A stretch of DNA of 38,332 nucleotides, from positions 1 to 38,332 of the forward strand of contig JAOUMU010000016.1 in assembly GCA_029881335.1 (NCBI GenBank), written 5' to 3'. Positions within the stretch are counted from its first letter, which is position 1; every line of letters starts with the position of its first letter. Below the pieces are notes generated by a model. It did no database searches and had not been told where the DNA came from. It saw only the letters and a program-made list of their open reading frames with translations. The DNA comes from Nitrospinota bacterium (lineage in GTDB: Bacteria > Nitrospinota_A > UBA7883). Shown here one piece after another: positions 4,449 to 36,486 of this stretch. Position numbers and translations under genes: made by a program.

Positions 4449-5784
4449 GCCGCTGAAAATCACAGAGCTTGCTCTGCGAGACGCGCACCAGTCTCTGTTG
4501 GCCACGCGCATGAGGCTGGAGCATATGACTCCCATCGCCCAGGCCTTGGACGATATCGGCTACTGGTCCGTGGAAATGTGGGGAGGCGCCACCTTCGACA
4601 CTTGTGTCAGGTTCCTCAACGAAGACCCGTGGGAGAGGGTGCGGACGCTGAAAAAGCTGATGCCCAAGACCAGGTTCCAGATGCTTCTGCGAGGGCAGAA
4701 CCTGGTGGGGTATCGCCACTATGCCGACGATGTGGTGGAAAAGTTCATCGACCTCTCCTGCGCAGCCGGCATAGACGTGTTCCGGGTTTTTGACGCGCTA
4801 AACGACCTGCGGAATATCAAGACCTCGGTGGACCGAATCCGCAAGAACGGCAAGCATGTGCAGGGAGCCATGTGTTACACCACCAGCCCCATGCACGACA
4901 TGGGCTTTTTCGTTGACCTGGCGGTTCGGCTGAGGGAAATGAACGTGGACTCAATATGTATAAAGGATATGGCGGGGCTTTTGTCTCCGACGCTGGTGGG
5001 CGACCTTGTAGCCGGCATCAAGGAAAAAGTGGATGTCCCCATACATCTGCACTCCCACACCACCTCAGGCTATGCCCTGATGACCATGACAAGGGCCATA
5101 GACGCCGGAGTGGACGCCGTGGATACTGCCATATCTCCGCTCTCCATGGGCTCCAGCCATAGCCCCACGGAGACCATCGTCTCCGCCCTGAAGGGAACCG
5201 ATCGGGACACCGGGCTGGAAATGAACAAGTTGTTGGAGATAGCCCGGCACTTTACAAAGGTGCGAAGGGAATACGCCAAGGTGGACACGGCATTCCTGGG
5301 AGTGGATGTGAATATCCTTGTTTCCCAGGTGCCGGGGGGGATGATATCGAACCTGGAGGCCCAACTGAAGACTCAAAACGCGCTTCATCGACTCCCGGAA
5401 GTGCTGGAGGAGCTGCCTAATTGCCGCAAGGACATGGGCTATCCGCCGCTGGTGACCCCCACCTCGCAGATTGTGGGCGCTCAGGCTGTGCTAAATGTGT
5501 TGATGGGCAGGTACAAAATCATCTCCAGGGAGACCCGTGACCTGGTGGAAGGCCGCTATGGCCGTCTACCAGGCCCGGTGGCGCCGGAACTGCTCGCCAG
5601 GGTGGAGGGGGACCGGGAGACTGTGATTACCGTGCGCCCGGCGGACCTCATCGAGCCGGAGTGGGAAAAGTTCAAGGAAGAGGCAAAGGGGAAAACATCT
5701 TCTGAAGAGGATGTGATGGTGTATGCCCTTTTCCCCCAGGTGGCGGATGATTACATGAAGAAAAGGGGAACTCCTCCCGAATAG
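4438..5784 (+). CDS. OadA/PycB-type carboxyltransferase subunit without biotinyl domain
   Basis: The 448-residue protein has the HMG-CoA lyase-like TIM barrel and the carboxylase C-terminal domain shared by oxaloacetate decarboxylase alpha, pyruvate carboxylase subunit B and transcarboxylase 5S. Visible are LRDAHQSLLATRMR at the barrel start, the carbamylated-lysine segment IKDMAG (Lys176) and metal-binding His205 and His207 in LHSHTT. It transfers a carboxyl group between pyruvate/oxaloacetate and biotin. It stops right after the conserved domain: the C-terminal biotinyl domain of OadA/PycB (about 100-150 more residues) is absent, so a separate biotin carrier protein is needed and is not in the window. 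Oxaloacetate decarboxylase, pyruvate carboxylase or methylmalonyl-CoA transcarboxylase cannot be told apart. The start is uncertain because the only good ribosome site serves the overlapping nine-codon ORF. Confidence 0.88.
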   Translation: MSAKPLKITELALRDAHQSLLATRMRLEHMTPIAQALDDIGYWSVEMWGGATFDTCVRFLNEDPWERVRTLKKLMPKTRFQMLLRGQNLVGYRHYADDVVEKFIDLSCAAGIDVFRVFDALNDLRNIKTSVDRIRKNGKHVQGAMCYTTSPMHDMGFFVDLAVRLREMNVDSICIKDMAGLLSPTLVGDLVAGIKEKVDVPIHLHSHTTSGYALMTMTRAIDAGVDAVDTAISPLSMGSSHSPTETIVSALKGTDRDTGLEMNKLLEIARHFTKVRREYAKVDTAFLGVDVNILVSQVPGGMISNLEAQLKTQNALHRLPEVLEELPNCRKDMGYPPLVTPTSQIVGAQAVLNVLMGRYKIISRETRDLVEGRYGRLPGPVAPELLARVEGDRETVITVRPADLIEPEWEKFKEEAKGKTSSEEDVMVYALFPQVADDYMKKRGTPPE

Positions 5785-5792
5785 AGCGGTGT

Positions 5793-5829
5793 CGGCGCTC
5801 TCTGCTCTGGGCTTGCCCGCCGCTTTTTT
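5793..5829 (+). terminator. Probable rho-independent terminator after the carboxyltransferase
   Basis: CGGCG (5793-5797) pairs with CGCCG (5818-5822) around an inner GGGC/GCCC, followed by C and six T. It lies 9 bases after the stop codon. The stem is short with a large loop, so strength is uncertain. Confidence 0.5.
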
Positions 5830-6000
5830 CAGTCAATATATCATTGCATGTTCAAAGCCCTTTTCCCTGGGGTGGCGCCCTCCATCCGAAAACCAGGTTT
5901 TTAATCCTCGCTAAACATTAACTGAAAACCATGAACTTGCGCTAGAATCGTTGATGGATTATTAGTTGGGATTAAACCTAGGAAGGAGACTCTCTATTCC

Positions 6001-6108
6001 ATGGCCCGGATAGACCTTATTGCAACACTCCATGCCATAGCTCCCCCCTTGGGTCGTCCCTTCTATCAGCAATGCAGCATGGCTGGGGGGGAATCCAGGC
6101 ATGAGTAG
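6001..6108 (+). CDS. Small 35-residue ORF overlapping the kinase start
   Basis: ATG at 6001 follows GGAAGGAGA (5981-5989; spacing 11 bases, rather long) and encodes 35 residues with no recognised domain. Its stop TAG lies in ATGAGTAG, so it overlaps the histidine kinase ATG (6101) by 8 bases. The kinase itself has only a G-run and no well-placed Shine-Dalgarno, so translational coupling is plausible. It could equally be a chance ORF in the leader. No homologue known to me. Confidence 0.3.
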   Translation: MARIDLIATLHAIAPPLGRPFYQQCSMAGGESRHE

Positions 6109-9100
6109 CGGAGGGCTCTCATTCCAGGACGCTCCAGTCCGCATCAAGCTCACCATCCTCTCCATGGGCGCCACAATTTTGGCCTTGGCCCTGGCCACTT
6201 TGATCTCTATGGCAAACAATACGATGATCGAGTGGAGATCCCATGAAAAAGAACTGAAGATTAAGGCCGAAGTTATCGGCGCCAACAGCCGGGCCGCGCT
6301 TTTGTTCGTGGACAAGGAGCACTTGAAAAGAAACCTCTCGGCGGTATCCATAGACAACTCAATAATGATGGCCGCCATCTTTTCCGCCGATGGCCAGGTC
6401 ATGGCCCGCTACTTGCGGACAGGGGAATCAGCTCCCGCGCCAGAACTCCGACCCTCGGGAACATATTTCGATTGGAAGAAACTGAGCCTTTATATCCCCA
6501 TAATGATGGACGGGGAGAGGGTGGGGACGGTCTATATTGAAGACGACCTGGAGGAGTTTTATTACTATGCCCGCATCTATCTGCTGGTGTCCCTGGTTGC
6601 CGCCCTTGTGGCCGTGGCGGCGGCGTATCTCTTCTGGTCCAGAGCCCAGCGCATAATCACGGATCCCATTTCGTCGCTGGCTGGCGCCATGCAAACGGTT
6701 TCCCACACCAGTGATTACACACTGAGGATGGAAAATCTGGGAAAAGACGAGATGGGCTCCTTGGTGGCCGGATTCAATGAAATGCTGGGGCAGATCCAGG
6801 AGAAGGAACAGAAACTGGAGGAACATTCCCGCAGCCTGGAGAAGGAAGTCTCGTTGCGCACCCAGGAATTGCGGGAGAAAAACGAAATGCTTCGCAGCGA
6901 ACTGACGGAAAGATTGAAAACCGAAGTGGCGCTAAACCGGGAAAGGGAGCTTTTCATCCACGGTCCGGCGGTGGCCTTCAAGCTGGCCGCCACCCAGGGA
7001 TGGCCCGTGGAGTATATCTCCCCAAACGTGGTCCAATTCGGGTACCAGTCTTCCGACATCCTCTCCAGAGGAAGGACGCTTTTGGATATGATCGCTCAAG
7101 ATGACAGGGGCCGCTTCTCCTACGACGCCTCCAAATGCCTGGCCGGGGATGGCGCTTCTTTCGAAGGGGAATACCGCTTGATAGGCGCGGATGGGCAGAC
7201 GTTCTGGCTGGATATCACAGCCGTGTTCGTGCTGGACGCAAAAAGAAAAGTGACCCACATGGACGGATACGCCCTGGACATCACAGAGCGTAAAATATAT
7301 GAGGAAAAGCTCAACGAAAGCATGGTGGAGCTAAAACGCTTCAACCGCCTCATGTCCGGTCGGGAAAAAAGGATCATGGAGCTTAAGTCGGACATCAACG
7401 AACTGGTGGCCCTTCAGGGGCAAGAACCCAGATTCAATACTACCTCTGAAATGGAGACGGAGCCTATCCAGGAGCAAGAGAACGCCATAGTATTCTGGCA
7501 GAATTCATTCCCCCAGGTGGTGGTGGACAGGGACGCGGCCATGAAGGCGGGCCTGGAAACAACTGTTGTGGAAGTGGCGTATTGCCATTCAACCTGCTCG
7601 GCGCCCATGGTCTTGGCCAGAGAAAAGGGTTTTTTCGCCCGTCGGGGATTGAACTCAACAATTGAGGCTGTCAAGGCTCCGCCATATATCCGGGAGATGC
7701 TAACCCTGGGCAAGGTAAAAGCGGCAATTATGCCCATGCCGGAGATATTGGCCATGGCCGCAGGCGCCGGAAGCCAGGCCGTGGATGTGAAAATATTCCC
7801 CCTATACCGCGCCGACAACCAGGGACTGGTGTTATCCAGCAGGCATATAGGGCTCAAAGATCCCTCGGACCTCAAGGGGATGACCTTCGCTGTCCCCGGC
7901 TTCGATACAATCAACTGCCATCTGCTATTTCATTACCTGGCCGAAAACGGCATAGACCCTCTCAAGGATATAACTGTCCGTCAGATAGACCCGGCACTGA
8001 CTTCATACTATCTTCGCAAGGGTAAAGTGGATGGTGTTTTCGCATCCGAGCCTTTTCTGGGCGTCGCGTTGGACTCCGATGACGCGTTCCTCATGGTACG
8101 CTCCAGTCAAATCTGGCGAGGACATCCATGCTGCGGCCTGGCCCTCCATGGCGAATTTTACTCCGGCGCCCCAAAATCGGCGGGTGTCCTGCTGGAAGCT
8201 TTCGCCGAGGGAGTCGCCGCTATGGGAACTCTGGATATCTCGGAGATCGCTCTTCTGGCCGCCGCCCTCACCGAGCCTGGCCATATCCCTTTGGCCGACC
8301 AGAGCCCCATCGAAAAGGCTCTGACCCCAGGCATGGGCGGAGAGGGACCCAGGTTTGTCGCAGACCCAACCGGTGGAGGAGGCGTATGGCAACTGGCGCA
8401 AATGCAGCGATGGGGCCGATTGTGCCAGAATATGGATCACCAGAAACTGATTGAACAGGTCTTTATTACCGGACATCTTGCTTGGGCGGAATTTCCCCAG
8501 GCGGACAAACCTCCCATGGAAATGGAGAGCAGCGTGCCCGAGGTGATCGCCGAATTGCCATACAGCGTGTTCAATCCTGATAGCCACATCAGGCGGATGG
8601 ATTCGGACCAGGAGAGCCTTGAGCCCATTGTCACCGGGGCGAACCAGATCCTGACCCAGGCCATGGAGCAGAACGCCGACATGATCTTCAAGCCGCTGGG
8701 AAAGGGCCAGGCAGGCCGTCTGGACAGGCTCGCCTCCGGAATTGCCGCCACCCTGCGCTCCCTGGAAGATACCCTGATGGAGCAAAGGGAATTGCTGGAG
8801 AAGAGAGTGGAGGAGCGCACCGGCGAGCTTTCCAACAGCCGGAGGATCGCCCTGAACATGATGGAGGACGCCCAGGAAGCCAGGCAAAGGGCGGAGAAAA
8901 TGGCCGACGAGATCAAGGAAGCCCGCCATGTGGCGGAGATAGCGGCCCAGGACCTGAAAAACACTCTGCTGGTCTCCGAGCAGTTGCGGCAGGAAACAGA
9001 AAAAGCCAAGGATCTGGCGGAGAGAATGGCCCAGGAAGCGGCTCAGGCCAGCGAAGCCAAAAGCGATTTTATGGCCAACATGAGCCACGAACTGCGCACC

Positions 9101-11012: not shown

Positions 11013-14000
11013 TCACGCTCTCTTTTCAATCAACACAAATCCCTCTCCATCCAGCCTTCCGGTCACGCCTGCGCCCAGCCAACCACCCGGTGAACCGATT
11101 ATATCGCCGACAGGGTCCAGCCGCCCCAGGGCCGCCCCGGGGCTGCAAACTTCCATCATTCCATCGGCGCGGTTCCCCTCCCGGATTCGCGCTCCAGGCA
11201 AAAGAATTCCAGCGGCGCCCTGCTTGATATACATGGGAGTCTCTCCCCAGACTATCCCCATCCACTCGTCGCCGAACAGACTCAACGGAAGCCTGCCCAG
11301 TTTGGCTTTCCACTCCACATCAGCTTCGCCAGGGGGCCCCACCGCCAGAAAACGTCGGACGTTGGCGAAATCGTAAGGATGTCCCATTCTCCCCATCCCC
11401 TCCAACAATTCCCAATCCCCGAAGACGATGGTGGCGTTGGAGTCATACACGGCGGTGGGAGCTGTGGAATGCGGCGGGAGGGAATGATGCTGGCTCGACT
11501 GCATCCCCAAAAGAAGAGGCGCCACCATCCCCAGCAAAAGCCCAGGATGGGAGGAGAGCGGCTGCGCGGAGAGGACTATGTCCACCGGGCCGAAATCCAT
11601 CACCGCCGCCAACTGATATGCGTTCGCCAACAGACCGGCGTGGCTGTGGGCCGCCCACTCTCCACCTCCATCTGAGTCTGTGGAGTAAAACGCCGCCGCC
11701 GGTGAGTCCGGGTTCGCGTCCACACCAGGGTTGAAGACAAAGCCGCGGTAAGGATTGGCTTTAAGGTCTTCGATAAAAACCGCATTCACTCCGGCTTTTT
11801 CCAGTTCCATCGCCTTCGGCGCTTGGGCGCGCGACATCACCACTGTGGTCAAGCCCGCCGCCCGCGCCGCCGCCAATGCCGTTTCCGTGTCCCAATCGCT
11901 CTTCATCACAGCCGCCGCCGCGCCCGCCGCCTGGATCCCCAGGATCACAGACACGGCATCAACGGAATTCGGGAGCATGACCCCCAGGAACCTTGCTTCT
12001 TTTGCATTCTCCACCAGCGAGGCTCCCAACCTGGCGTAATGGTCTATCAATTGACCATAAGTCATTACCAGATCGTGATGGCCATGCTCCGACATGACCG
12101 CGTGTCCCGCGCCGAAAATGGCTGCCGCGTCCAGAACGGCCGCCGGTATGGTCCTGCGGGTATCCGCGCCATCGAACATCATCTCCCTCATTATTCCGGT
12201 CAGGGCGCCTCTTGCGGCGTCCCTTCGCATGCGTCCCTCCAGCCCCGGGGCCGTGTCAAGAGCCCTGGGCGGCAGGACGGTGACCGTGATCCTGTTAAAG
12301 AACCTGGGCTTGACCTTCGCCGTCATGCGGGAAAAATGGGTCAGATGAGCCCCCTCTATTCGTACAGGGAGGATGGAAGCGCCAGATTTCTGGGCGATGA
12401 GGGCAGGCCCCATATGGGTTTTCATCAATGCGCCGGTGATGGTGATCCTCCCTTCAGGGAAAATAATAATTCTGCCCCCCGCGCGGAGGATCTTCACCAG
12501 CTTCTTTATCGCCATGGGATTCTCCGCGTCGAGGGTGTGGGTGTCCACCAGGGAGAGAAACAGCCTGGCCCACCAGCGGCCCGCCATGAACCTGTTCACC
12601 ACAAAGGAGTATCGCCCCGGAAAGAACACCCCCATCAACACACCGTCCAGGAAGGACTGGTGATTGGCAACGACCATCACATTCCCTCCCGCAGCGGCCA
12701 CATGCTCCACTCCCCGGATGCGGATCTGGTACATGGCCCTGAGGATAATTTTCAAAAGAAGTCGCAACACCGGCCTGTCTCCACTCTCCAGGGCCAGGGA
12801 TCTGATGACGAAATAGGCGCCCCCGTTGAGCAGGCAGACCACCAGGAAGACAACCACCGGCCCTAGCCCGGCGCCGATCATGGCTGCGGCGCCTCCAGCG
12901 GAGACCACCATGAAGAGGGCGTTCATTATATTGTTGGCGGCGATAACCCTGGCCCTTTCCTCCTCTCTGCATCGGGTCTGCATGACGGCGTATAGCGGCA
13001 CGATGAAAAGACCGCCGCAGGCGGCGATGAGGAAAAGATCCAGCGATATTCGCCATCCCACAAGGTGGGAGAGTAATTGCGCCACGGTCGTTGGCGCCAC
13101 GGGCGCTGGCGCCCCCTCCAGCGGCATGGGCAATCCCAGGCTGGCCAGGCAGAGGTCCAGACCGAACAAGGTCATCCCGAAGGCGCCTAGGGGAACGTAT
13201 CGGGTGTCGATCTCCCCTTTCAAAAGCTTGTTGCACAGCAGGGAGCCGAGCCCGGTCCCCACGGAGAACATGGTCAGAAACCAGGTCACCACGCCCTCTG
13301 TCCCTTCCACAGTCACCCTCACGTATACCGGCAGGGTGGAGAGAAACACCGCCCCGATCAGCCAGAACCAAGAAATGCCAAGTATGGAAAGGAACACCGG
13401 CCGGGACGAACGGGAGATGCTGATAATTTTCCAAGATTGGGCCAGGATATTCCACCCCACTCTCAGGTCCGCCGCAGGGGCCGGAGCCTTTGGGATAAAC
13501 AAGCTGGCGCCCAGCCCCGCCGCCGCCACTATAAGCAACGCGGTGGAGACCACCGTCGCGCCCCCCTCCACGGCGATAAGCAGGCCGCCGCCAATGGTAC
13601 CCAGCAAAATGGCCACGAAAGTGGCGGCCTCTATCAGGGCATTGCCGGCTATCAGCTCCCCGCGCTCCAGGTGGTCCGGCAGGATGCTGTATTTTATAGG
13701 CCCGAAGAATGTGGACTGGGTTCCCATAAGGAAAAGTACTGCCAGCAACAGACCGGGAGTCATTGTGTAAAATCCCACGGCGGCCAGCAGCATCAGAAGG
13801 ATTTCCCACACCTTAACAAGGCGGATGATCGCTGATTTTTCGTATTTATCCGCCAATTGCCCAGCCAGGGAGGAGAAGAGGAAGAATGGTAGGATGAATA
13901 TCCCGCCGGCGGCCACCACCAATACTCCGGAAGAGACACCCCACATCTGCAAGCCAGCGTACATGATCATGATCACCAGGGCGTTCTTGAAAAGATTGTC

Positions 14001-14078
14001 GTTGAACGCGCCCAGGAACTGAGTGGTGAAAAGAGGCAGAAAACGCCTGGAAAAGAGAAGATGAACCTGGTTCTTCAA
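11013..14078 (-). CDS. LplT-PlsC-AMP-ligase fusion (Aas-like) with degenerate, truncated ligase domain
   Basis: About 1021 residues. Residues 1-400: an MFS transporter of the lysophospholipid flippase LplT type, beginning FLPLFTTQFLGAFNDN. About 450-640: a PlsC/LPLAT acyltransferase with intact HX4D (NHQSFLDG, His473) and FPEGR. About 650-1021: an AMP-binding acyl-ACP synthetase-like region. Intact fusions import lysophospholipid, re-acylate it and activate the fatty acid. Here the adenylation P-loop (family: TSGSTGxPKG) reads STDSDGGGEWA near residue 800, and the protein stops just after GRLDGEGF, so the catalytic-lysine C-terminal subdomain is missing; no remainder lies downstream because the kinase gene ends 34 bases away. 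The TTG start overlaps the rrtA stop as TTGA and has AGAGG upstream. An open frame reaches 14498, but that part is rrtA in another frame. Confidence 0.85.
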   Translation of the reverse strand: MKNQVHLLFSRRFLPLFTTQFLGAFNDNLFKNALVIMIMYAGLQMWGVSSGVLVVAAGGIFILPFFLFSSLAGQLADKYEKSAIIRLVKVWEILLMLLAAVGFYTMTPGLLLAVLFLMGTQSTFFGPIKYSILPDHLERGELIAGNALIEAATFVAILLGTIGGGLLIAVEGGATVVSTALLIVAAAGLGASLFIPKAPAPAADLRVGWNILAQSWKIISISRSSRPVFLSILGISWFWLIGAVFLSTLPVYVRVTVEGTEGVVTWFLTMFSVGTGLGSLLCNKLLKGEIDTRYVPLGAFGMTLFGLDLCLASLGLPMPLEGAPAPVAPTTVAQLLSHLVGWRISLDLFLIAACGGLFIVPLYAVMQTRCREEERARVIAANNIMNALFMVVSAGGAAAMIGAGLGPVVVFLVVCLLNGGAYFVIRSLALESGDRPVLRLLLKIILRAMYQIRIRGVEHVAAAGGNVMVVANHQSFLDGVLMGVFFPGRYSFVVNRFMAGRWWARLFLSLVDTHTLDAENPMAIKKLVKILRAGGRIIIFPEGRITITGALMKTHMGPALIAQKSGASILPVRIEGAHLTHFSRMTAKVKPRFFNRITVTVLPPRALDTAPGLEGRMRRDAARGALTGIMREMMFDGADTRRTIPAAVLDAAAIFGAGHAVMSEHGHHDLVMTYGQLIDHYARLGASLVENAKEARFLGVMLPNSVDAVSVILGIQAAGAAAAVMKSDWDTETALAAARAAGLTTVVMSRAQAPKAMELEKAGVNAVFIEDLKANPYRGFVFNPGVDANPDSPAAAFYSTDSDGGGEWAAHSHAGLLANAYQLAAVMDFGPVDIVLSAQPLSSHPGLLLGMVAPLLLGMQSSQHHSLPPHSTAPTAVYDSNATIVFGDWELLEGMGRMGHPYDFANVRRFLAVGPPGEADVEWKAKLGRLPLSLFGDEWMGIVWGETPMYIKQGAAGILLPGARIREGNRADGMMEVCSPGAALGRLDPVGDIIGSPGGWLGAGVTGRLDGEGFVLIEKRA

Positions 14079-14701
14079 ATCGCCTCTGCTCCCGATGCGG
14101 CGGGATACTCCCGCGCTGGATGGCGCCTCGGCAATGAAAATGCGCAGACCATAACAGCCGCCGCGAACCCGAATGCGTGGGCTTCCGGAACGCTGGGCCA
14201 TGAGGCGGAGCTGATCAAAGCGCCGCCATTGGTTATCTCCGCGGTAATTTTCACTAAATCCGCCGCCGCTATCAAAATGACAGGATAATACCCCGTTTGA
14301 AGCCATATATGAAACACAATCATTACCAGCATGGCGTTTAGCAGGCCGGAGAGGCCGCAATACACCAGAGGGGCGCCTGGCCACAGGGCCAGATATATAT
14401 CCACCCCGGCTATTCCGGCGCCTACTCCCATGAGCCATGCCCTTTTGCCATACCGCTCCAGCAACCATCCTTGCAAAACAAATGGTGGCAGGTTCCACCA
14501 GAAATGGCGGATGTCACAGTGGACGAAATGGGCCGAAAAGAGTCGCAGTGGTTCTTGCGTGTACAACGTGTTATTCCAGATAAGTTCCACAGGACTTGAG
14601 CCGAAATGTATATACAATATTATGCTGGCCAGTCCGCTAAATATTGTCAGCCATGGCGCCCTTGCGACGCCATGACCGACCCACCCGCTCGGGAAAGACA
14701 C
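14075..14701 (-). CDS. rrtA: Rhombosortase (rhomboid-family intramembrane serine protease)
   Basis: A 208-residue protein with about six membrane segments, the size and shape of the rhombosortase branch of rhomboid proteases. The catalytic serine is Ser118 in YCGLSGLLNA and the partner is His175 in EAHAFGFAAA, giving the Ser-His dyad. The early HFVHCDIRHFWWNL segment matches the conserved His/Trp-Asn region of rhomboids. Rhombosortases cleave the C-terminal GlyGly-CTERM tail of exported proteins in the inner membrane, before surface attachment or type II secretion. It starts 4 bases after the stop of the VIT/vWA gene, whose product has such a tail, and its stop overlaps the start of the LplT-PlsC gene, so all three are surely one operon. 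The family assignment is stronger than the exact substrate link. Confidence 0.85.
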   Translation of the reverse strand: MSFPSGWVGHGVARAPWLTIFSGLASIILYIHFGSSPVELIWNNTLYTQEPLRLFSAHFVHCDIRHFWWNLPPFVLQGWLLERYGKRAWLMGVGAGIAGVDIYLALWPGAPLVYCGLSGLLNAMLVMIVFHIWLQTGYYPVILIAAADLVKITAEITNGGALISSASWPSVPEAHAFGFAAAVMVCAFSLPRRHPAREYPAASGAEAI

Positions 14702-14704
14702 AGG

Positions 14705-16801
14705 TCACACCCTTCCTGTTGTTCGCCTTCCACCGCGCAAGGCTGCCGCAACCAGAAACGGTAGGGTCAGGATAAATAGACCGTCCGCCGCGCCAGCCCC
14801 CGCCGAGCCGGATGAACTCAAATTTGCTCTCCTTCCTGTGAACATGGGAGTGTAGGAATCCGCCCTCCTGTTTTGAACCGGGGAGGCTTGCCTCGCCGTC
14901 TGGGCCGAGGTCTCCACGGCACGGCGAGCCTTGTTTCTTCTTTCCACTCCAAGTTTTTGGAACACCTCTTCACGAACAACCACCATGGAGGTGTAATTGG
15001 TGACCAGGCCATGTTCCACAGCCAGGTCCTCAATGGCGGTTTTGATATCAGCCTTTTCGCCGAAGTTGTCGATCTCCTCCTTTAATTCGGCGATCCTGGC
15101 GTAAGCCCACAGACGCAAAAGCTCCGGGCTGTCAGTGGAACCCTCTGGAAAAACAAAGCTTGTCTGATATTCCATATCCTTGCCACCCACCTTGGCGGAA
15201 AGCTTCACCTGGGCTGGGCCCCCCGTGTAGTAGCGCCCGAATATGGTCAAGCTCTGGCCCCTATATACAGACCCGATCTTTTCCGGGGTCTGCTCGCCGA
15301 TTTTGATTCCGGATATGTTCAGTCTGGCACTGTTTAAAGCCTGGTGGGTAACCTTGGACTTGGCTTGCAGGATCTTTCCGATAATGTCGTCGGAATTGGA
15401 GACTGCCATAGAAAAACCGCCGGAGGCGCCAGTCATTGCCGTCAGCAACGGCCTGTTGGCGCTGTTCCCCATAATGAAGGTGAAGAGGCGGACATCCCTT
15501 TTGGATACTAAATCAAGAAAAGCCCGCTGGTTGGTCTCTCCCACATTTGCCACACCATCGGTGACGAGGAGAATTGCGCAGGGCCGGTCCGCGTCCAGCT
15601 TTGCCAATGCCATCGACAAACCATCATACAGATTGGTGGAGCCGCCCGGTTTTTGCGACGCGACCATGCTTGTATATACATGTTTATTTCGCTCCGTTGC
15701 GGATACATACCCATTTGTCAGCTCCCATGCGGAGTTGGAAAAAGCTATGATACGGAATCTGTCATCTGGACCCATCCTGTTGATCGTCTTTTCCACACCT
15801 TCGGCCAGCGCCCCATATTTCCCTTGCATGGAGCCTGAAAGGTCCAGGACGAATACCCAGTCTGCCCCGGCAGTGATCGGCGCCAGGTCATCCCCGGGGG
15901 TCAGTGTCAACATGAAGACTCCCGGCTTATTTATCAATGGCTTGTAAGTCACCAAATCCAGCGAAGGGGGGGACGTATCCGGGAGACGGAAGTAGACCAC
16001 AATATCAGTGTCCAGCCTGGCTGGTACAGCCGATGGGATCGCAGTGGGCTCCGCTCCCTCCTCTACCTGGCCTGCGGAGGCGCCCATGTTGTCCATATGA
16101 ACAGTCCATTCACCCGGGGTCACCTGGGTGACGGCGGCGGAGGGATGGGAGGGCGCCCGCACAGCCTGGAGATGGGCTGCGGAGCGAATATGCATATCAA
16201 AGCTGAAAGTTCCAACCACCGTATCGTTGGATGTCCAGAACTGGATTTTTTCTTCGTCCACACCTCCTTCTTCCAAGGGATATACATAGGAGGCAATATT
16301 GTGGTCATAGACAATGGGCTGTATATACACCATTCGGATGCTAGTGGGTTGGCTGGCTCGTACTGGAAACAGAGAAATATCAAATGTTTTGTTCCCCTGC
16401 TGTTCTGTCAGCCCGGCGTCCCTGCCTGCCTCTTTCTCCTTTGTATAAACATCCCTTGCTGTATCCCTTTTCATCACTTCCGCCACCACGGGCTTGCCAT
16501 CGATCCACATTGTGAATTCCGCCACTGCGGCCCTTTCCGGTATCGGGAAGGAATAAACCGCCTCCAGGTCTCTGTCATGTGGATTGGCAAAGGTCTGCTC
16601 GATGGTTGTAATAGCGTACCCATCCTGAATAATGACGTTTACCTTGTGGTCTTGGATGGAGAGGGGCGGTATATTTCCATCCTTGGGGGAGAGTAGCCCT
16701 GCGGCGGACGCAGTAAAAGTGTATATACAGGCCATAGGTATGAACAGAATCATCACCCCTAGTGACGTTATGAAAAATGAATTTAACTTACGGGTCGACA
16801 T
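14705..16801 (-). CDS. VIT/von Willebrand A domain surface protein with GlyGly-CTERM-like tail
   Basis: About 698 residues: an N-terminal signal/TM segment (about residues 10-33), a vault-inter-alpha-trypsin (VIT) domain (about 45-165), a vWA domain (about 310-490) with intact MIDAS DLSGS (Asp320), and a C-terminal half that resembles inter-alpha-trypsin inhibitor-like bacterial proteins. The last 35 residues form a Ser/Gly/Ala stretch, one hydrophobic helix (LFILTLPFLVAAAL) and an Arg-rich end, the architecture of a GlyGly-CTERM sorting signal, though the glycine motif is GAGAADG rather than classic GG repeats. The start at 16801 is chosen because AGGAGG lies 6 bases upstream; a further ATG at 16843 lies inside the operator region. 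Function is likely adhesion or metal-dependent protein binding at the surface (family knowledge). First gene of the operon with rrtA. Confidence 0.88.
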   Translation of the reverse strand: MSTRKLNSFFITSLGVMILFIPMACIYTFTASAAGLLSPKDGNIPPLSIQDHKVNVIIQDGYAITTIEQTFANPHDRDLEAVYSFPIPERAAVAEFTMWIDGKPVVAEVMKRDTARDVYTKEKEAGRDAGLTEQQGNKTFDISLFPVRASQPTSIRMVYIQPIVYDHNIASYVYPLEEGGVDEEKIQFWTSNDTVVGTFSFDMHIRSAAHLQAVRAPSHPSAAVTQVTPGEWTVHMDNMGASAGQVEEGAEPTAIPSAVPARLDTDIVVYFRLPDTSPPSLDLVTYKPLINKPGVFMLTLTPGDDLAPITAGADWVFVLDLSGSMQGKYGALAEGVEKTINRMGPDDRFRIIAFSNSAWELTNGYVSATERNKHVYTSMVASQKPGGSTNLYDGLSMALAKLDADRPCAILLVTDGVANVGETNQRAFLDLVSKRDVRLFTFIMGNSANRPLLTAMTGASGGFSMAVSNSDDIIGKILQAKSKVTHQALNSARLNISGIKIGEQTPEKIGSVYRGQSLTIFGRYYTGGPAQVKLSAKVGGKDMEYQTSFVFPEGSTDSPELLRLWAYARIAELKEEIDNFGEKADIKTAIEDLAVEHGLVTNYTSMVVVREEVFQKLGVERRNKARRAVETSAQTARQASPVQNRRADSYTPMFTGRRANLSSSGSAGAGAADGLFILTLPFLVAAALRGGRRTTGRV

Positions 16802-16816
16802 TGCTTGCCTCCTATG

Positions 16817-16829
16817 TGAACATTGTTCA
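16817..16829. promoter_or_regulatory. Operator site 1, perfect 13-bp palindrome
   Basis: TGAACATTGTTCA, a perfect palindrome around a central base. It lies just upstream of the VIT/vWA ribosome binding site, downstream of that gene's predicted -10 box, and is identical to site 3. Probable TetR-family operator. Confidence 0.75.
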
Positions 16830-16843: not shown

Positions 16844-16872
16844 ATGTTAGCACCTACCTGAACATTGTTCAA
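16844..16872 (-). promoter_or_regulatory. Predicted promoter of the VIT/vWA-rrtA-lplT operon
   Basis: On the - strand TTGAAC (16872-16867) and TAACAT (16849-16844) are 17 bases apart. The -35 box is inside operator 3, and operators 2 and 1 lie over the start of the transcript, the usual layout of a repressed promoter. Confidence 0.5.
16859..16871. promoter_or_regulatory. Operator site 3, perfect 13-bp palindrome
   Basis: TGAACATTGTTCA, identical to site 1 and starting 42 bases from it, i.e. about four helical turns, on the same DNA face. It overlaps the predicted -35 box of the VIT operon and sits 9 bases before the -35 box of tetR, so one bound repressor could control both directions. Confidence 0.75.
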
Positions 16873-16947: not shown

Positions 16948-17565
16948 ATGACCAACGTGGCAAAGGTCTCCCACGAGGACTTGAAAAGTAAGCTTATCCA
17001 GGCTGCCATCCATATTGTTCAGAATGAGGGCTACACCGGGCTGAATGTGCGTAAAACCGCGTCCATGGCCGGATGCGCCATCGGCATGGTCTACAAAATC
17101 TTCGACAACATGGATGAACTGGCCATCCATGTGAACGCGGACACCCTGGATAAGTTAGACAAATGCCTATCCCATCCCTGCTCCTTCAATTATCCAGGAG
17201 AGGCTGTCCAGAAGTTGGCCGATCGCTACATCGCCTTTAGCCGGGACAACTTTAACCTGTGGAGCATGCTGTTCGAGCATAGGATGGAACGCGCTCTGCC
17301 CGATTGGTTCAGGCAAAAAATTGCGCAATGTTTCGGCCATGTGGAAAAGGCGATGGCGCCCCTGACGAAAGCGGGTCCCCCCGCCTCCGTGGACCACGCA
17401 AAGGTGCTATGGGCGTCGCTGCACGGAATATGCTCGCTGTCTATCACCGGCAAGCTGGACACTGTGGGCGCCCAATCCGCTTCCACATTGGCGGCCGAAA
17501 TGATAAATAATTACATAGCCGGGCTTGCCGCCCGGACAAAGCGGAAAGATAGTTTCAGAGAATAG
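16948..17565 (+). CDS. TetR-family transcriptional regulator
   Basis: A 205-residue protein of the usual TetR length. The N-terminal DNA-binding domain (about residues 10-58) shows the family pattern: LIQAAIHIVQNEGYTGLNVRKTASMAGCAIGMVYK is spread over the three helices, with the recognition helix near residues 40-50, followed by an all-helical ligand-binding domain (about 70-195) of the WHG type (LWASLHGICSLS near residue 155). It is divergent from the VIT/vWA operon, and three palindromic sites fill the spacer, so it is the obvious repressor of that operon and probably of itself (inference). The ligand is unknown. The gene downstream starts 15 bases after the stop and is probably cotranscribed. 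No clear Shine-Dalgarno precedes the ATG. Confidence 0.9.
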   Translation: MTNVAKVSHEDLKSKLIQAAIHIVQNEGYTGLNVRKTASMAGCAIGMVYKIFDNMDELAIHVNADTLDKLDKCLSHPCSFNYPGEAVQKLADRYIAFSRDNFNLWSMLFEHRMERALPDWFRQKIAQCFGHVEKAMAPLTKAGPPASVDHAKVLWASLHGICSLSITGKLDTVGAQSASTLAAEMINNYIAGLAARTKRKDSFRE

Positions 17566-27522: not shown

Positions 27523-30126
27523 TTAACTTCTCAGCGCCCGCTGTATCCGGTCGAATATATCCGAGGCCCGAGCGACATAAAGGTCTATTGCATCCTTGTC
27601 TTTCTGGTTGATGGCGGTGAACCGGAAGTAGCAGATATTAACCGCCCCTCCCTTGATTTCCGAGCTAGTCATCTCTGCCATGGCGTCCACTCTCAATGGT
27701 GGCTCCCAAGGCCGGTCTATGGAAATGAAAACGGGCAGGCCTTGGGCAGGCGCATGTCCCTCAATGGCGGCAACCAGGCCGGAGGAGTTTATGGAGACGC
27801 ATATGCCCCTGGGCTCCTCCCCGGTGGGGGTGAATCCGGCCGGGGTGGCTTGGGAGGGGGCGCCCAGGCCGGGCGCCTGTCCTAATTGTTTTTCAAGTGT
27901 ATTCACCTTTTCCATGAGTCTGGTAATCGCGTTCTTGACGTCTTTGCCCACGGAATCACCCAGCTCCACCTGCTCGCCTCCCTGAGTGGACGGTGAAGCC
28001 TGGCGGCGTTGGGTGGTGGGAGTTTCCAGTATCATCTGGGTCAGGGAGGGGAACATTCCCGGGCTCACCTCGGAGAACCGGAAACCGAAATAATCCTCGA
28101 ACACTCCACGTTGCGCCACCATTCCCCTGGCCTCGCTCTTGGGGATTCTGGCGGTGGAACCGAAAGAGTCAATGGGCGACTCGTCGTCATGGCCATCTTC
28201 GGGGATAGACACTTCCAGCATAGCATCGGACTCCTCATGATCAATGTCATAGTCTGGTCTGTCCGATTGGGAAAGGGTTATCGGATCCTGGCCTGCCTCC
28301 AGATCGTCGAGCATAAATCCGCTGAGGGTGTCGTCCTCCTCGGAATATGGGGCCAGGATTTTTACAGTGTCTTCGATATCGTCGAAAGCGTAGTTGTGCC
28401 CTTCTTCCTTTATCCTGATTGGATCCACATCCCCATCCTCCTCCTGGTGAGGCTGGGTAAGTAAATCCAGATCCATTATGTTGAAATCCCTGGAGGTTGT
28501 CATCTCCATGTCATGGAAATCATCCACTTGCGGATATCCAGGAATGTCCTCCTCCTCTTCCTCGTAGTCCTCATCTTCCTCATCCTCAGGGGGGGCCGAA
28601 GGGCCGCTGATGGCCATGTCGAGGTCTTTCTCATCCATATCCGGGAGGCCAAGCAATTCCTTGTCAAGAATGTCTATGTCCTCTTCGGAAATAGTGTCAT
28701 CACTAATGTCCGTGCTGGTGGCTTCCAGGTCTTCCTCGTGCATCATTTCCTGGGCAGGCTCCGCGTCTTCTTCCTCGAAGGAAAGCTCCTCCTCTTCCGA
28801 TTCCTCGGTTTCTAATTCCAGGTCCACATCGGGGAGAGGCTCTTCAGAGGCCAGATCCGGCTCCTCCTCCAGGGGCTCGGGAAGGAAAAACCCCGCCTCC
28901 GGCGTTTCGTCCCCCAGCATTTCCTGCTCGGTCTCCATTCGGGTTATATCTTCCGTCCCCATGTAGTTGACCGATTGCTCTTCCAATGCCCCAGGTAGAA
29001 TGTATGAATCCTGCAATGTCTCATCAAGAGAATCGATAGACTCACTGTCCTGGTACTCGAAGTCCACTTCCTCAATGGCTGAGGGGGGGCCGATAGGCTG
29101 GTAATCCAGGTAATCATCAGAGATGGCCATGTCGCTTATATCGTCCGTGTTTTCATATTCGCTTCCCACAGTCTCCATCAGGGGGGTGGACTCCATGTTC
29201 TCACTCTGCTCTGTATCTTCCATGGCGTCGAGTTCGGCTTTTGTGGTGGAGTCGTCTAGCGGCTGGAACATATAACCGGACATGGCGTCCTCATCTTCCA
29301 GGTCCAAAACTTCTTTGGAGTTCTCGATTTGCTCAACTTCCTGTATTACTCCCCGCATCCCCTCAAATGATTCCTCATCCTCGTCCGGGATATCCATCTC
29401 CACCATCGGGACGATATCTTCCTCGGACTCCTCCTCTTCGGCTTCCTCTGGCAGATATGATTCGGTTTCCTCTTCCTCCTCCTCGTCCGGGATATCCATC
29501 TCCACCATCGGGACGATATCTTCCTCGGACTCCTCCTCTTCGGCTTCCTCTGGCAGATAGGATTCGGTTTCCTCTTCCTCCTCCTCGTCCGGGATATCCA
29601 TCTCCACCATCGGCACTATGTCTTCTTCGGTCCCGGCGGCGGCTTCTAGCGCCTCGGGAACATACGGCGGGGGGTGCTCTTCCTCTGCGACGGAGGTTTC
29701 TTCCAAAACTTCTTCGGTGGCGACGAGCTCCTCCGAATCGGGGATTGCCTCAACCGAGGTGGCCGGTTCCTGGTCCGGCTCATCTTCGGTGGTGGGAATT
29801 TCCTCCATTACAGGCCCTGGGATGGTTCCTTTCAGTGTCTCATCATCTTCAGGAGGGGTAACCATATCGAGAATTATCAAAGGAAAGGTCTGGTTCTGGA
29901 CAAGTTTGAACGGCGTAATGTTGGTCCCGCCATTTTCCGGCTTATGCAGGAAAATCTGGTCTCCTCTGGAAAGTGTGATTTTGTCTTTGTCGCTGTTGGC
30001 GACCACGACCGCCATGAGGGATTCCTTGAATTTTTTCACAAGGCAGACGTATTTCTCTGCCCCCACGTCCTCAGACAGGCTAAACTGCAGCTTTTCGTTA
30101 GTAGAGTAGAATTCGGATGGTTTCAC
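27523..30126 (-). CDS. Large acidic protein with PilZN-like N-terminus and PilZ-like C-terminus
   Basis: 867 residues. Residues 1-95 look like a PilZN/YcgR-type beta-barrel (SEDVGAEKYVCLVKKF, then ITLSRGDQIFL). About 96-660 is a very acidic, low-complexity linker dominated by Glu/Asp with a 34-residue tandem repeat. About 660-770 is a short conserved-looking segment (FEDYFGFRFSEVSPGMFPSL) and a coiled coil. About 770-860 is a PilZ-like domain (GICVSINSSGLVAAIEG, then FRFTAINQKDKDAID). PilZ proteins bind c-di-GMP; here the RxxxR and D/NxSxxG motifs are not intact (SINSSG in place of NxSxxG), so binding is doubtful. The start is a GTG without clear Shine-Dalgarno, directly after an in-frame stop. 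It is divergent from the pilB/gspE gene. Assignment rests on pattern only. Confidence 0.65.
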   Translation of the reverse strand: MKPSEFYSTNEKLQFSLSEDVGAEKYVCLVKKFKESLMAVVVANSDKDKITLSRGDQIFLHKPENGGTNITPFKLVQNQTFPLIILDMVTPPEDDETLKGTIPGPVMEEIPTTEDEPDQEPATSVEAIPDSEELVATEEVLEETSVAEEEHPPPYVPEALEAAAGTEEDIVPMVEMDIPDEEEEEETESYLPEEAEEEESEEDIVPMVEMDIPDEEEEEETESYLPEEAEEEESEEDIVPMVEMDIPDEDEESFEGMRGVIQEVEQIENSKEVLDLEDEDAMSGYMFQPLDDSTTKAELDAMEDTEQSENMESTPLMETVGSEYENTDDISDMAISDDYLDYQPIGPPSAIEEVDFEYQDSESIDSLDETLQDSYILPGALEEQSVNYMGTEDITRMETEQEMLGDETPEAGFFLPEPLEEEPDLASEEPLPDVDLELETEESEEEELSFEEEDAEPAQEMMHEEDLEATSTDISDDTISEEDIDILDKELLGLPDMDEKDLDMAISGPSAPPEDEEDEDYEEEEEDIPGYPQVDDFHDMEMTTSRDFNIMDLDLLTQPHQEEDGDVDPIRIKEEGHNYAFDDIEDTVKILAPYSEEDDTLSGFMLDDLEAGQDPITLSQSDRPDYDIDHEESDAMLEVSIPEDGHDDESPIDSFGSTARIPKSEARGMVAQRGVFEDYFGFRFSEVSPGMFPSLTQMILETPTTQRRQASPSTQGGEQVELGDSVGKDVKNAITRLMEKVNTLEKQLGQAPGLGAPSQATPAGFTPTGEEPRGICVSINSSGLVAAIEGHAPAQGLPVFISIDRPWEPPLRVDAMAEMTSSEIKGGAVNICYFRFTAINQKDKDAIDLYVARASDIFDRIQRALRS
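29383..29630. repeat. 102-bp tandem repeat inside the acidic protein gene
   Basis: Units start at 29383, 29485 and 29587. The first two are full 102-bp copies that differ at perhaps one base (AGATATGATTC versus AGATAGGATTC); the third is partial and diverges after about 30 bases. Each full unit encodes 34 residues containing DIVPMVEMDIPDEE and SYLPEEAEEEES. The near identity indicates a recent duplication that keeps the frame. Confidence 0.9.
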
Positions 30127-33911: not shown

Positions 33912-34691
33912 ATGAAAAAGTATGTATTCGGTTTGGCCAGTGTCATTGTTTTGCTTTCCATCATCGCCTTTGTGCCAGCCTGTGGCAAAAGCAGCAGACC
34001 TCGCAGCTTTGGCAACGGCGCGGCGCCGGGGGTTCCAGGGCTTCCGGGGAGCCAGAATGACACGGGGAACTCGTCACCGGATCGTGGGTGTGGGGCCAGG
34101 CACCAGATGGCGGGCCACCAGTCTGTGTGGGGCTTTTCCTATTGCGATAAAACCGCCACGCTTCACATAGACCAAAAGACCACCAACGCCAGCGGTGAGG
34201 CGCTAGGATTCAGAAACGTGGACAGAGGGATGCTCACTTTTCGGCTGACGGATATGATAAATGGTTCGATCACTGATCGGGAGACTTTTGGAATCATCTT
34301 CATGGCCGATGGAAGATCCAATGGAGAGGCCAACTGGCAGTGGATGTCCTACGCCGTGGGTGGGGGCGCCATCCAATCCAGGCTGATAGTGCAGCGTTTC
34401 GACGGATCATGCCCCGGCTTTTGCGAAAACTCTTATATTACAGACGACTTGCAGTTTACCAACTCTTCCGAAGTCTTTGAGTTTAACTGTGGATGGGATA
34501 CAACCGAGGGTACGGTATGGTGTGAAATCACTAGCAAATCGGACGCGTCATTCCACATGCGCGCCGATAACGATACCTTGGGGCCGTATAACGCTTTAAG
34601 GTATATAGGGCTGGGCAGGAACGCCTTTGAAGGCCCCTATCCCGGGTACGAAGGAACCGTGTCCCATGTGCAGCTGACTATATTCAACTAA
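33912..34691 (+). CDS. Lipoprotein of an unrecognised tandem family, copy 1
   Basis: 259 residues: lipoprotein signal peptide with lipobox FVPAC (Cys near residue 25), a Gly/Pro/Ser-rich linker, then a roughly 190-residue beta-rich domain shared with the two next genes. Shared landmarks are an early RGMLTFRLTD-type strand, a W-W pair in EANWQWMSY, RFDGSCPGFCEN, FEFNCGWD, WCEIT, and the ending GPYPGYEGTVSHVQLTIFN. Paired cysteines suggest disulfides in the periplasm or on the cell surface. The all-beta pattern recalls jelly-roll/concanavalin-like domains, which is only an impression. No function assigned. The Shine-Dalgarno (GAGG) is weak. Confidence 0.8.
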   Translation: MKKYVFGLASVIVLLSIIAFVPACGKSSRPRSFGNGAAPGVPGLPGSQNDTGNSSPDRGCGARHQMAGHQSVWGFSYCDKTATLHIDQKTTNASGEALGFRNVDRGMLTFRLTDMINGSITDRETFGIIFMADGRSNGEANWQWMSYAVGGGAIQSRLIVQRFDGSCPGFCENSYITDDLQFTNSSEVFEFNCGWDTTEGTVWCEITSKSDASFHMRADNDTLGPYNALRYIGLGRNAFEGPYPGYEGTVSHVQLTIFN

Positions 34692-34759
34692 TGTTCCGGT
34701 TTTGCTCTCACCCCTGATTTGCAGCGCGGTTTTCTCGACGTCAGGTTCCAATAAAATAT

Positions 34760-34789
34760 TTGACATGGCTTTATGCGAATAAGTACCAT
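34760..34789 (+). promoter_or_regulatory. Possible internal promoter before lipoprotein copy 2
   Basis: TTGACA (34760-34765), a perfect -35 box, and TACCAT (34784-34789) 18 bases further. It would let copy 2 be expressed independently of copy 1. Confidence 0.45.
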
Positions 34790-34876
34790 TAGGATGATAT
34801 GCCGCAAAGATTTTCAAGTACCCGGATAAATACCTAGGGCCGGGTGAATAGTATTTTTGATACAATAAGGAGTTTT

Positions 34877-35626
34877 ATGACTAGCCGGAATTATTTTTTT
34901 TCAAGTCTTTTTGTTACCACTATTTGTATAGGTCTAATAACAGCCTGTTCCAGCGGGGGAGGGGGCTCCACCGGCGATAACGACAAGGTCGCCACCCCTT
35001 GCGGCCCGGAGCAGGCGCTCAAGGAATACAGCGCCGTTTGGACGTATTACAACTGTGGGCCATTCAACCAGTTATTCATATATCCGCAACAGGTGGATAT
35101 GAACGGTGTCGCCCTGAACTCAACACCGGTGGGCAAGGGGATGATTTCCTTGCGCTATACCGGATTGTCGATCGAATCATTCAGATTGAGGGACTCTGCG
35201 CCAACATTCGGGCTGTATTTCCAGGCCTATGGAAATAACAACGATGAAGTTAATTGGGCGTGGTTTTCCACACGTGTCACCACGGACGCGCTTATTTCCA
35301 CACTGAGGTCTCAAAGGTTCGACGGCAGTTGCCCTGGCCGGGATCTTTGCGAGTCCCCCGAGCAGACTGGGAAAGTTCAGTTTACGAATCCTGCTGAAGT
35401 CTACCAGTGGGATTGCTGGTGGGATGATACAGACAGCCTGCTGGGCACGGTCCGGTGCACAGTCACCCAGATGTCAGACGACCGTCAGTTAGTCACCCTC
35501 ACGGTCAAGACTTATGGATTGTATAATGGTCTTAACTACATGGGTTTTGGCAATCCGTCCTTTGATGGACCTTACCCCGGCTACGAAGGCACGGTGTCTG
35601 ACCTGAAAATAACCATCTTTCAATGA
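34877..35626 (+). CDS. Lipoprotein of the same family, copy 2
   Basis: 249 residues from ATG 34877, which has AAGGAG 6 bases upstream; the frame also allows a GTG at 34844, but the 11 extra residues would precede the signal peptide. Lipobox ITAC, then a Ser/Gly linker and the shared domain: NEVNWAWF-like segment (NNDEVNWAWF), RFDGSCPGRDLCES, YQWDCWWDD, VRCTVTQM, and the ending GPYPGYEGTVSDLKITIFQ. Compared with copy 1 it has an extra early Cys pair (ATPCGPEQA and YNCGPF), shared with copy 3. Envelope lipoprotein of unknown role. Confidence 0.82.
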   Translation: MTSRNYFFSSLFVTTICIGLITACSSGGGGSTGDNDKVATPCGPEQALKEYSAVWTYYNCGPFNQLFIYPQQVDMNGVALNSTPVGKGMISLRYTGLSIESFRLRDSAPTFGLYFQAYGNNNDEVNWAWFSTRVTTDALISTLRSQRFDGSCPGRDLCESPEQTGKVQFTNPAEVYQWDCWWDDTDSLLGTVRCTVTQMSDDRQLVTLTVKTYGLYNGLNYMGFGNPSFDGPYPGYEGTVSDLKITIFQ

Positions 35627-35742
35627 GATGCAGGTCCGGCGGAATTTGAATTTTTATGAGACCTCAACGGTCCATTATGCGATTCCAGTCTTGGCGTTGA
35701 ATATCGAAACATTGCTCAAACGTTTAGCGTAAAGGTACTGAA

Positions 35743-36486
35743 ATGAACAGATATAGATATACAAAAGGAGCTATGGCGGTGGCTCTACTGCTCTTGCCGC
35801 TGATCCTGGCATGCTCTGGCGGGGACGGAGGAGGGGAGGACACTCCCGTAGATCCAAACGCCACTCCCTGTGGTCCGACTCAAACCATGCCCGGAAAAGC
35901 GGTGGTATGGTTGTTTTACCAATGCGAGCAGGTGGACACAATAAAGGTTACTCCGGAGACCCTCGATTCCAGGACGGGGACCCCCCTGGGTGACTTGCCG
36001 ATGAAACGAGGAATGCTCTCCTTCCGCTACCACGACTTGAGTAATTACAGCTTTGGAGGTGTGGAAACATACGGCGTATTCTTCAAGGCAGGCGGAAGGG
36101 CGCACAATTGGGAAGTGAACTGGCAATGGCTGGCTTTCTCCCTGGGCGCAGGCTATATACAAAACGAGCTTATTATCCAGAGATTTGACGGGGTATGCGA
36201 TCCAAAGCCCTTTTGCGAAAACCACGACTTCACCATGGATCTGCAATTCTTTAGCGAAAGCGATGTATACCAATGGGATTGCTGGTGGAATACGGACACC
36301 AACAGGGTGACATGCACGGTGACGAAGTTAACCGGCGATCCACAGCAGGTCACATTGACCAACACCCCCATGGGGCCGTATAACGCCTTGCACTATTTGG
36401 GAGTGGGGAAAAACGCATATGACAGCCATACATACCCAAGTTTCCAGGGAAGCGTATCGGAATTCAAGTTTTCGGTTTTTAACTGA
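35743..36486 (+). CDS. Lipoprotein of the same family, copy 3
   Basis: 247 residues: basic N-terminus, hydrophobic stretch and lipobox LILAC (Cys near residue 24), acidic Gly-rich linker, and the shared domain with ATPCGPTQ, FYQCEQV, KRGMLSFRYHDLS, WEVNWQWL, QRFDGVCDPKPFCEN, YQWDCWWN, VTCTVTKL and an ending (YPSFQGSVSEFKFSVFN) that has drifted from the GPYPGYEGTVS form of copies 1 and 2. Closer to copy 2 in the N-terminal half by the Cys pattern. Last gene before a strong terminator. Function unknown. Confidence 0.82.
   Translation: MNRYRYTKGAMAVALLLLPLILACSGGDGGGEDTPVDPNATPCGPTQTMPGKAVVWLFYQCEQVDTIKVTPETLDSRTGTPLGDLPMKRGMLSFRYHDLSNYSFGGVETYGVFFKAGGRAHNWEVNWQWLAFSLGAGYIQNELIIQRFDGVCDPKPFCENHDFTMDLQFFSESDVYQWDCWWNTDTNRVTCTVTKLTGDPQQVTLTNTPMGPYNALHYLGVGKNAYDSHTYPSFQGSVSEFKFSVFN

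Follow-up and report, generated by a model that had tools for sequence, protein, structure and literature searches.

We examined a three-gene operon in a 38,332-nucleotide (nt) stretch of an uncultured Nitrospinota bacterium (contig JAOUMU010000016.1, assembly GCA_029881335.1; the whole stretch is called the window), where a surface protein, a rhombosortase and a lysophospholipid flippase-acyltransferase are encoded in succession on the minus strand. The first gene (16801-14705; open reading frame, Pfam and tail comparison) encodes a protein of 698 amino acids (aa) with VIT and vWA domains, the second (14701-14075, GTG start; Pfam, NCBIfam and predicted structure) a 208-aa rhombosortase of the VIT type, and the third (14078-11013, TTG start at 14078; Pfam and NCBIfam) a 1021-aa fusion of LplT, PlsC and AMP-binding domains. 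Only 3 nt separate the VIT/vWA stop codon from the rhombosortase GTG, and the rhombosortase stop and fusion TTG share 4 nt (TTGA). An earlier note on this DNA had described three genes with a 3-base gap and a 4-base overlap, and the reading frames and spacing were borne out; its range of 14075-16801 holds the VIT/vWA and rhombosortase genes, but the LplT-PlsC gene lies outside it. Shine-Dalgarno-like sequences precede all three starts, with AGGAGG before the VIT/vWA ATG. A TetR-family repressor gene (TetR_C_33, 205 aa; domain match and conserved position) is divergently encoded on the plus strand (16948-17565). A motif scan placed two copies of a predicted TetR operator, the palindrome TGAACATTGTTCA, at 16817-16829 and 16859-16871, the second being the only exact site in the genome for a longer form, TTGAACANYGTTCA. 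The consensus matches from scans for promoters and terminators across the operon fell for the most part within genes and were not used.

The VIT/vWA protein (PF08487, 108.6 bits; VWA_2, 43.1 bits) contains a signal or transmembrane N-terminus, a VIT domain at residues 49-159 and a vWA domain at approximately 314-472 with the metal ion-dependent adhesion site motif DLSGS. Its C-terminus, SSSGSAGAGAADGLFILTLPFLVAAALRGGRRTTGRV, is Gly/Ser-rich, then hydrophobic, then basic, with GSAGAGAADGLFILTLPFLVAAALRGGRRTTGRV as the tripartite sorting tail. The C-termini of related VIT/vWA proteins follow the pattern GGGA(L/I/F)(D/G)PW, a Leu-rich helix and a basic end, and the window tail fits this pattern with GAGAADGLFILTLPFL. 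The GlyGly-CTERM model TIGR03501 gave no match to the window protein up to E 10; the tail of one relative (L073) scored 15.7 bits, just above the 15.5 cut-off. The description of the tail as GlyGly-CTERM-like, made in the earlier note, thus rests on its architecture and on comparison with the relatives' tails, because TIGR03501 itself does not detect the tail. A target with such a tripartite tail is encoded beside the rhombosortase here and in nearly all relatives with upstream sequence, and the pair is likely dedicated; further rhombosortase targets may exist in the genome, since TIGR03501 misses even the known tail. Use of TIGR03501 as a genome-wide target count was dropped, with matches in 11 of 14 control genomes, and its sole above-cut-off match in this genome sits inside a reading frame and not at its end. 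We also rejected the window protein as a class GN sortase target (TIGR03788, 195 bits against a cut-off of 551.65), as a rhomboid adjoins it instead.

The window rhombosortase scored 65.3 bits against TIGR03902, below the 84-bit cut-off, and a VIT-type relative from Chromatiales (L057) scored 102.6 bits, above it. Candidate catalytic residues are Ser118 in YCGLSGLLN and His175 in AHAFG; the GLSG serine and AHxxG histidine are conserved, in line with a predicted rhomboid fold carrying Ser and His on transmembrane helices 4 and 6. An AlphaFold2 model built from 29 sequences (mean predicted local distance difference test score 86) confidently matched rhomboids only, and its best PDB matches were all E. 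coli GlpG (probability 1.00, template modelling scores 0.53-0.59). The active-site stretch reads YCGLSGxLN in VIT-linked enzymes versus WYVGLSGxLH in classical gammaproteobacterial ones. The histidine of SGxLH (SGMLH in Shewanella), which replaces GlpG Tyr205, was described as a rhombosortase signature (Haft & Varghese, PMC3237569). This stacking residue was His in 46 of 49 classical enzymes and Asn in nearly all VIT-type ones, including the window enzyme (SGLLN). The motif frequency is biased among the 31 relative loci, which were collected with the pattern YCG[LI]SG[LV]LN; a set from a profile hidden Markov model search free of that filter (L137-L147) mostly showed the same type of motif. 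By their motifs, VIT-type rhombosortases are a variant subfamily. Matches of a rhombosortase profile search in 369 Gammaproteobacteria fell into two groups: 12, most of them VIT-linked, scored at least 119 bits, and about 110 scored no more than 102 bits. From the latter group 49 classical loci were taken as controls. A VIT/vWA gene lay directly upstream of the rhombosortase in 27 of the 31 independently fetched loci. The relatives' VIT/vWA proteins were 42-55% identical to that of the window, and that of a sister species 88%. TIGR03902 matches at E 1e-9 to 1e-15 in unrelated genomes (L003-L028) were ordinary rhomboids and were dropped, and a plasmid search returned a single distant pair, a lipase and rhombosortase in Alteromonas.

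The fusion comprises an LplT domain of the major facilitator superfamily (MFS; residues 1-430, PF07690), a PlsC domain (431-630, PF01553) and an AMP-binding domain (631-1021, PF00501). Its best full-length match was the LplT-PlsC-AMP model NF005291, at 908 bits against a cut-off of 1349. The MFS domain is joined to a PlsC domain whose HX4D motif is intact (NHQSFLDG, FPEGRI). The AMP-binding domain (window 11013-12188) is degenerate and truncated: its P-loop reads STDSDGGGEWA versus SSGSEGxPKG in relatives, and neither the YGxTETTP motif nor the C-terminal catalytic subdomain is present, so that the intact acyl-ACP (acyl carrier protein) synthetase motifs of NF005291/PRK06814 are missing. The fusions compared from outside the genus (Pelobacter, Chromatiales, Sedimenticola) retain the AMP motifs. 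The nonsynonymous rate (dN) of the AMP part was 2.6 times that of the PlsC part, and the domain resembles a pseudo-enzyme domain that the genus has retained under some degree of selection. As its catalytic motifs are lost there, acyl groups would come from the acyl-ACP of fatty acid synthesis.

The system was present in 3 of 24 genomes of the phylum, all from one genus, and the order of rhombosortase and fusion was kept in all three available species. One sister species (G002) retains the VIT tail, rhombosortase and fusion with the TTGA overlap. In the other (G001) the rhombosortase and fusion, overlapping by GTGA, are at a contig edge, while a separate contig edge holds the TetR gene, operator and beginning of the VIT gene. 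Within the genus, ratios of nonsynonymous to synonymous rates (dN/dS, counting method) were 0.12-0.21 for the VIT, rhombosortase, MFS and PlsC parts and 0.29 for the AMP part, all of them rough because dS exceeded 1 in the G001 comparison. The three-gene arrangement is more than chance, being kept in the genus at dN/dS of about 0.1-0.3 and recurring in other phyla.

The earlier note had predicted that rhombosortase, VIT/vWA and LplT/PlsC genes would occur together elsewhere, and we found them so in at least six lineages and at none of the 49 control loci. LplT-PlsC(-AMP) genes adjoin VIT-type rhombosortases in Nitrospinota, two desulfobacterial lineages, an alphaproteobacterium and Chromatiales. 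The fusion lies directly downstream on the same strand, approximately 90-150 nt from the rhombosortase, in Pelobacter (L054, L055) and Chromatiales (L057), and directly downstream on the same strand in G805/L207 with approximately 55 nt between the predicted genes. In the alphaproteobacterium CSMAG_677 (L053) it follows one gene after the rhombosortase, and in Sedimenticola (L060, L061) and G581/L208 it is convergent and 2 kb away. An unrelated acyltransferase (PF01757) follows the rhombosortase in Halieaceae and Lysobacterales (L058, L065, L069, L072, L074). Within 7 kb of the 49 classical rhombosortases there was no VIT/vWA or LplT/PlsC gene and no relative of that PF01757 acyltransferase. 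After lineages were collapsed, 7 of 37 were acyltransferase-linked compared with 0 of 49 controls (Fisher p 0.0019, indicative since the two groups differ in phylogeny), and the chance of such proximity under random gene placement was about 4e-10. When placed on a tree together with 23 unlinked fusions, the linked fusions required six changes, four of them forced by well-supported branches, which argues for repeated recruitment and against one inherited neighbourhood; the rhombosortase tree was too weakly resolved for counting gains. A literature search of open-licence papers found no report of a rhombosortase with LplT/PlsC. VIT/vWA-rhombosortase pairs were already known.

Some linked loci hold further genes. 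An alpha/beta hydrolase and a ceramidase-like membrane protein (PF05875, 30.5 bits, just under cut-off) lie between rhombosortase and fusion in L208 (locus positions 5535-7434), a pair suggestive of a lipid-remodelling cassette, and an AAT-family N-terminal hydrolase (PF03417) occupies the same interval in L053 (2714-3757). A gammaproteobacterial locus (G481/L143) shows a different layout, with TetR and PlsC/AMP genes and LplT-like MFS sequence beyond them, divergent from an operon of rhombotarget lipoprotein (TIGR04179) and rhombosortase, with operators shared between the two. That lipoprotein (8100-8969) has a lipobox-like sequence at its N-terminus and a rhombosortase tail at its C-terminus and is possibly lipidated at both ends. 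We rejected a tie of the acyltransferase to the VIT domain because its partner in G481 is the rhombotarget lipoprotein instead.

Regulation is the other recurrent part of the system. A homologue of the divergent TetR gene (TetR_C_33) is at the same place in many related loci. The motif TGAAC(A/G)NNGTTCA was observed in 2-4 copies in the intergenic region between TetR gene and operon at 16 loci (Nitrospinota, Alpha- and Gammaproteobacteria) and was absent from 685 kb of control loci. In G481 the copies sit between the PlsC/AMP and rhombosortase operons, which probably places the two under one repressor. Some linked fusions have a regulator of another type (TetR_C_24 in Pelobacter, XRE-like in Chromatiales).

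Given that the link is genuine and keeps recurring, the acyltransferase most likely functions in the rhombosortase pathway. We lean towards reading the observed operon, with its repressor and operator, as a TetR-controlled C-terminal sorting cassette in which LplT-PlsC is a working part of a lipid-anchoring pathway. The VIT/vWA protein would be exported and its tail placed in the inner membrane, where the rhombosortase would cut at the Gly/Ala-rich motif and transfer the newly exposed C-terminus onto an amine, most probably a phospholipid's ethanolamine group, yielding a lipid-anchored protein. LplT-PlsC would flip lysophospholipid from the periplasmic leaflet and re-acylate it, which would sustain the phosphatidylethanolamine supply for the anchor and clear lysolipid arising from maturation or release of the anchored protein. 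We infer phosphatidylethanolamine as nucleophile, and the repair of its lyso form or anchor supply, from Vibrio VesB and E. coli LplT/Aas; cleavage, lipid attachment and the direction of the lipid chemistry are likewise proposed. The earlier note's interpretation is partly supported overall, and it did not include the degenerate AMP-binding domain, the TetR/operator control or a second VIT/vWA pair, with a class GN sortase, in the genome. The Vibrio fact given in that note agrees with the published data, in which the C-terminal Gly of VesB carries +197 Da, consistent with glycerophosphoethanolamine, after rhombosortase cleavage (PMC6219818).

Several points weigh against this cassette reading. 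Transamidation onto intact phosphatidylethanolamine would itself yield no lysolipid. The activity of VIT-type rhombosortases is itself predicted, the window enzyme scores under the TIGR03902 cut-off and TIGR03501 does not pick up its target's tail. An adjoining acyltransferase is missing from most VIT-type loci and is therefore not obligatory, and many genomes with such loci carry LplT-PlsC elsewhere. The Sedimenticola fusion is within a larger phospholipid cluster (CdsA-like, CDP-alcohol transferase, PlsC), and there might be other reasons for its location.

The main rival is co-regulation without shared chemistry, in which TetR would respond to a lipid or envelope signal by switching on both the surface protein with its rhombosortase and a lysolipid repair enzyme that works on the bulk membrane and plays no part in anchoring. 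Of the additional parts of the module, the TetR gene and operator recur most widely, ahead of the acyltransferase; the operator between both G481 operons also fits this account, as does the shielding of E. coli from lysolipid damage by LplT/Aas (PMC11416262). Against this, the TetR_C_24 and XRE-like regulators at other linked fusions indicate that the link goes with the rhombosortase and not with a single regulon, and the unrelated PF01757 family occupies the same slot; we regard co-regulation alone as somewhat unlikely. Remodelling of the anchor as in glycosylphosphatidylinositol (GPI) anchoring, where hydrolases remove a chain from the protein-attached lipid and LplT-PlsC or the PF01757 enzyme restores one, could account for the lipid-hydrolase-like genes of L208 and L053. 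PF01757 enzymes generally act on extracytoplasmic substrates, which would suit such a role. However, LplT/PlsC work on the cytoplasmic face (PMC11416262) and the processed protein is on the other, and the window operon has no hydrolase, leaving remodelling improbable. A housekeeping LplT-PlsC kept behind the pair by operon inertia is already disfavoured and very improbable: such fusions occur in approximately 11% of gammaproteobacterial genomes, mostly without this neighbour, and that of the window may be a general lysolipid repair enzyme because it is the only strong match in its genome, but the link spans at least six lineages, was gained independently at least four times, is absent at the 49 control loci and is improbable by random proximity.

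The attachment partner of rhombosortases has been a question since 2011, on which the sole chemistry is that of one Vibrio protein with a glycerophosphoethanolamine mass. Repeated joining of lysophospholipid flippase-acyltransferases to rhombosortase operons points to a phospholipid in the reaction. The loci offer small self-contained operons for testing lipid dependence, some in cultured, non-pathogenic bacteria such as Sedimenticola, and the YCGLSGxLN subfamily with its recognisable operator is partly missed by annotation models. A wider, tentative possibility is that VIT-type rhombosortases form a second branch of Gram-negative C-terminal lipid anchoring with a dedicated repressor and operator and with enzymes of their own to service the lipid (LplT-PlsC or a PF01757 acyltransferase, in some cases also lipid hydrolases), phospholipid being the true second substrate. 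If true, this would be a bacterial analogue of GPI-anchor or archaeosortase-PssA logic.

Elsewhere in the window we observed a very acidic 867-aa protein with near-exact repeats of EDIVPMVEMDIPDEEEEEETESYLPEEAEEEE (27523-30126) and three tandem paralogous lipoprotein-like genes of approximately 250 aa each (33912-36486).

GlyGly-CTERM tails on VIT/vWA proteins, and dedicated pairs encoded side by side, have been known since 2011 (Haft & Varghese, PMC3237569). The window shares with GlyGly-CTERM/rhombosortase systems (PMC3237569; V. cholerae RssP-VesB, PMC6219818) a rhomboid-family enzyme beside a single target with a Gly-rich, hydrophobic and basic tail, but differs in falling below the TIGR03902 and TIGR03501 thresholds and in having YCGLSGxLN (Asn) for WYVGLSGxLH (His), and adds TetR/operator control and a lipid acyltransferase in the operon. 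The rhombotarget lipoprotein (TIGR04179) is likewise a rhombosortase-linked target, accompanied in G481 by TetR, the same operator and a PlsC-AMP protein, but is a small lipoprotein instead of a VIT/vWA protein. Class GN sortase, the proteobacterial dedicated sortase (TIGR03784, TIGR03788), also has a dedicated VIT/vWA target beside it, but the enzyme family and tail are unrelated and the window and sortase targets share only about 25% identity. The same genome encodes such a pair (L042, G000:C156, 6961-13067; TIGR03788, 688 bits; TIGR03784, 196 bits) together with matching two-component genes, so that its two VIT/vWA paralogues are paired with sorting enzymes that are unrelated to each other. 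A Pseudohongiella locus (L075, 3614-9522) has a class GN sortase/VIT pair divergent beside a rhombosortase/VIT pair, and in one from Litoreibacter (L077, 6599-16678) the rhombosortase/VIT pair has near it another VIT/vWA gene, of the type that sortases target.

Among lipid systems, E. coli LplT flips lysophospholipids and Aas re-acylates them, the system handling lyso-phosphatidylethanolamine, and LplT-Aas fusions have been mentioned as uncharacterised (PMC11416262). The window fusion has the same LplT flippase, PlsC acyltransferase and acyl-ACP-synthetase module, but as a single polypeptide with a degenerate AMP module, encoded with a sorting enzyme. Archaeosortase ArtA is syntenic with PssA and PssD, lipid enzymes that genetics showed to be needed for substrate processing (PMC7157517), and so offers a parallel of a sorting enzyme beside lipid enzymes, there of an ethanolamine lipid. 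The sorting enzymes are unrelated, however, and the ArtA case concerns head-group synthesis in archaea, whereas that of the window would concern acyl-chain repair.

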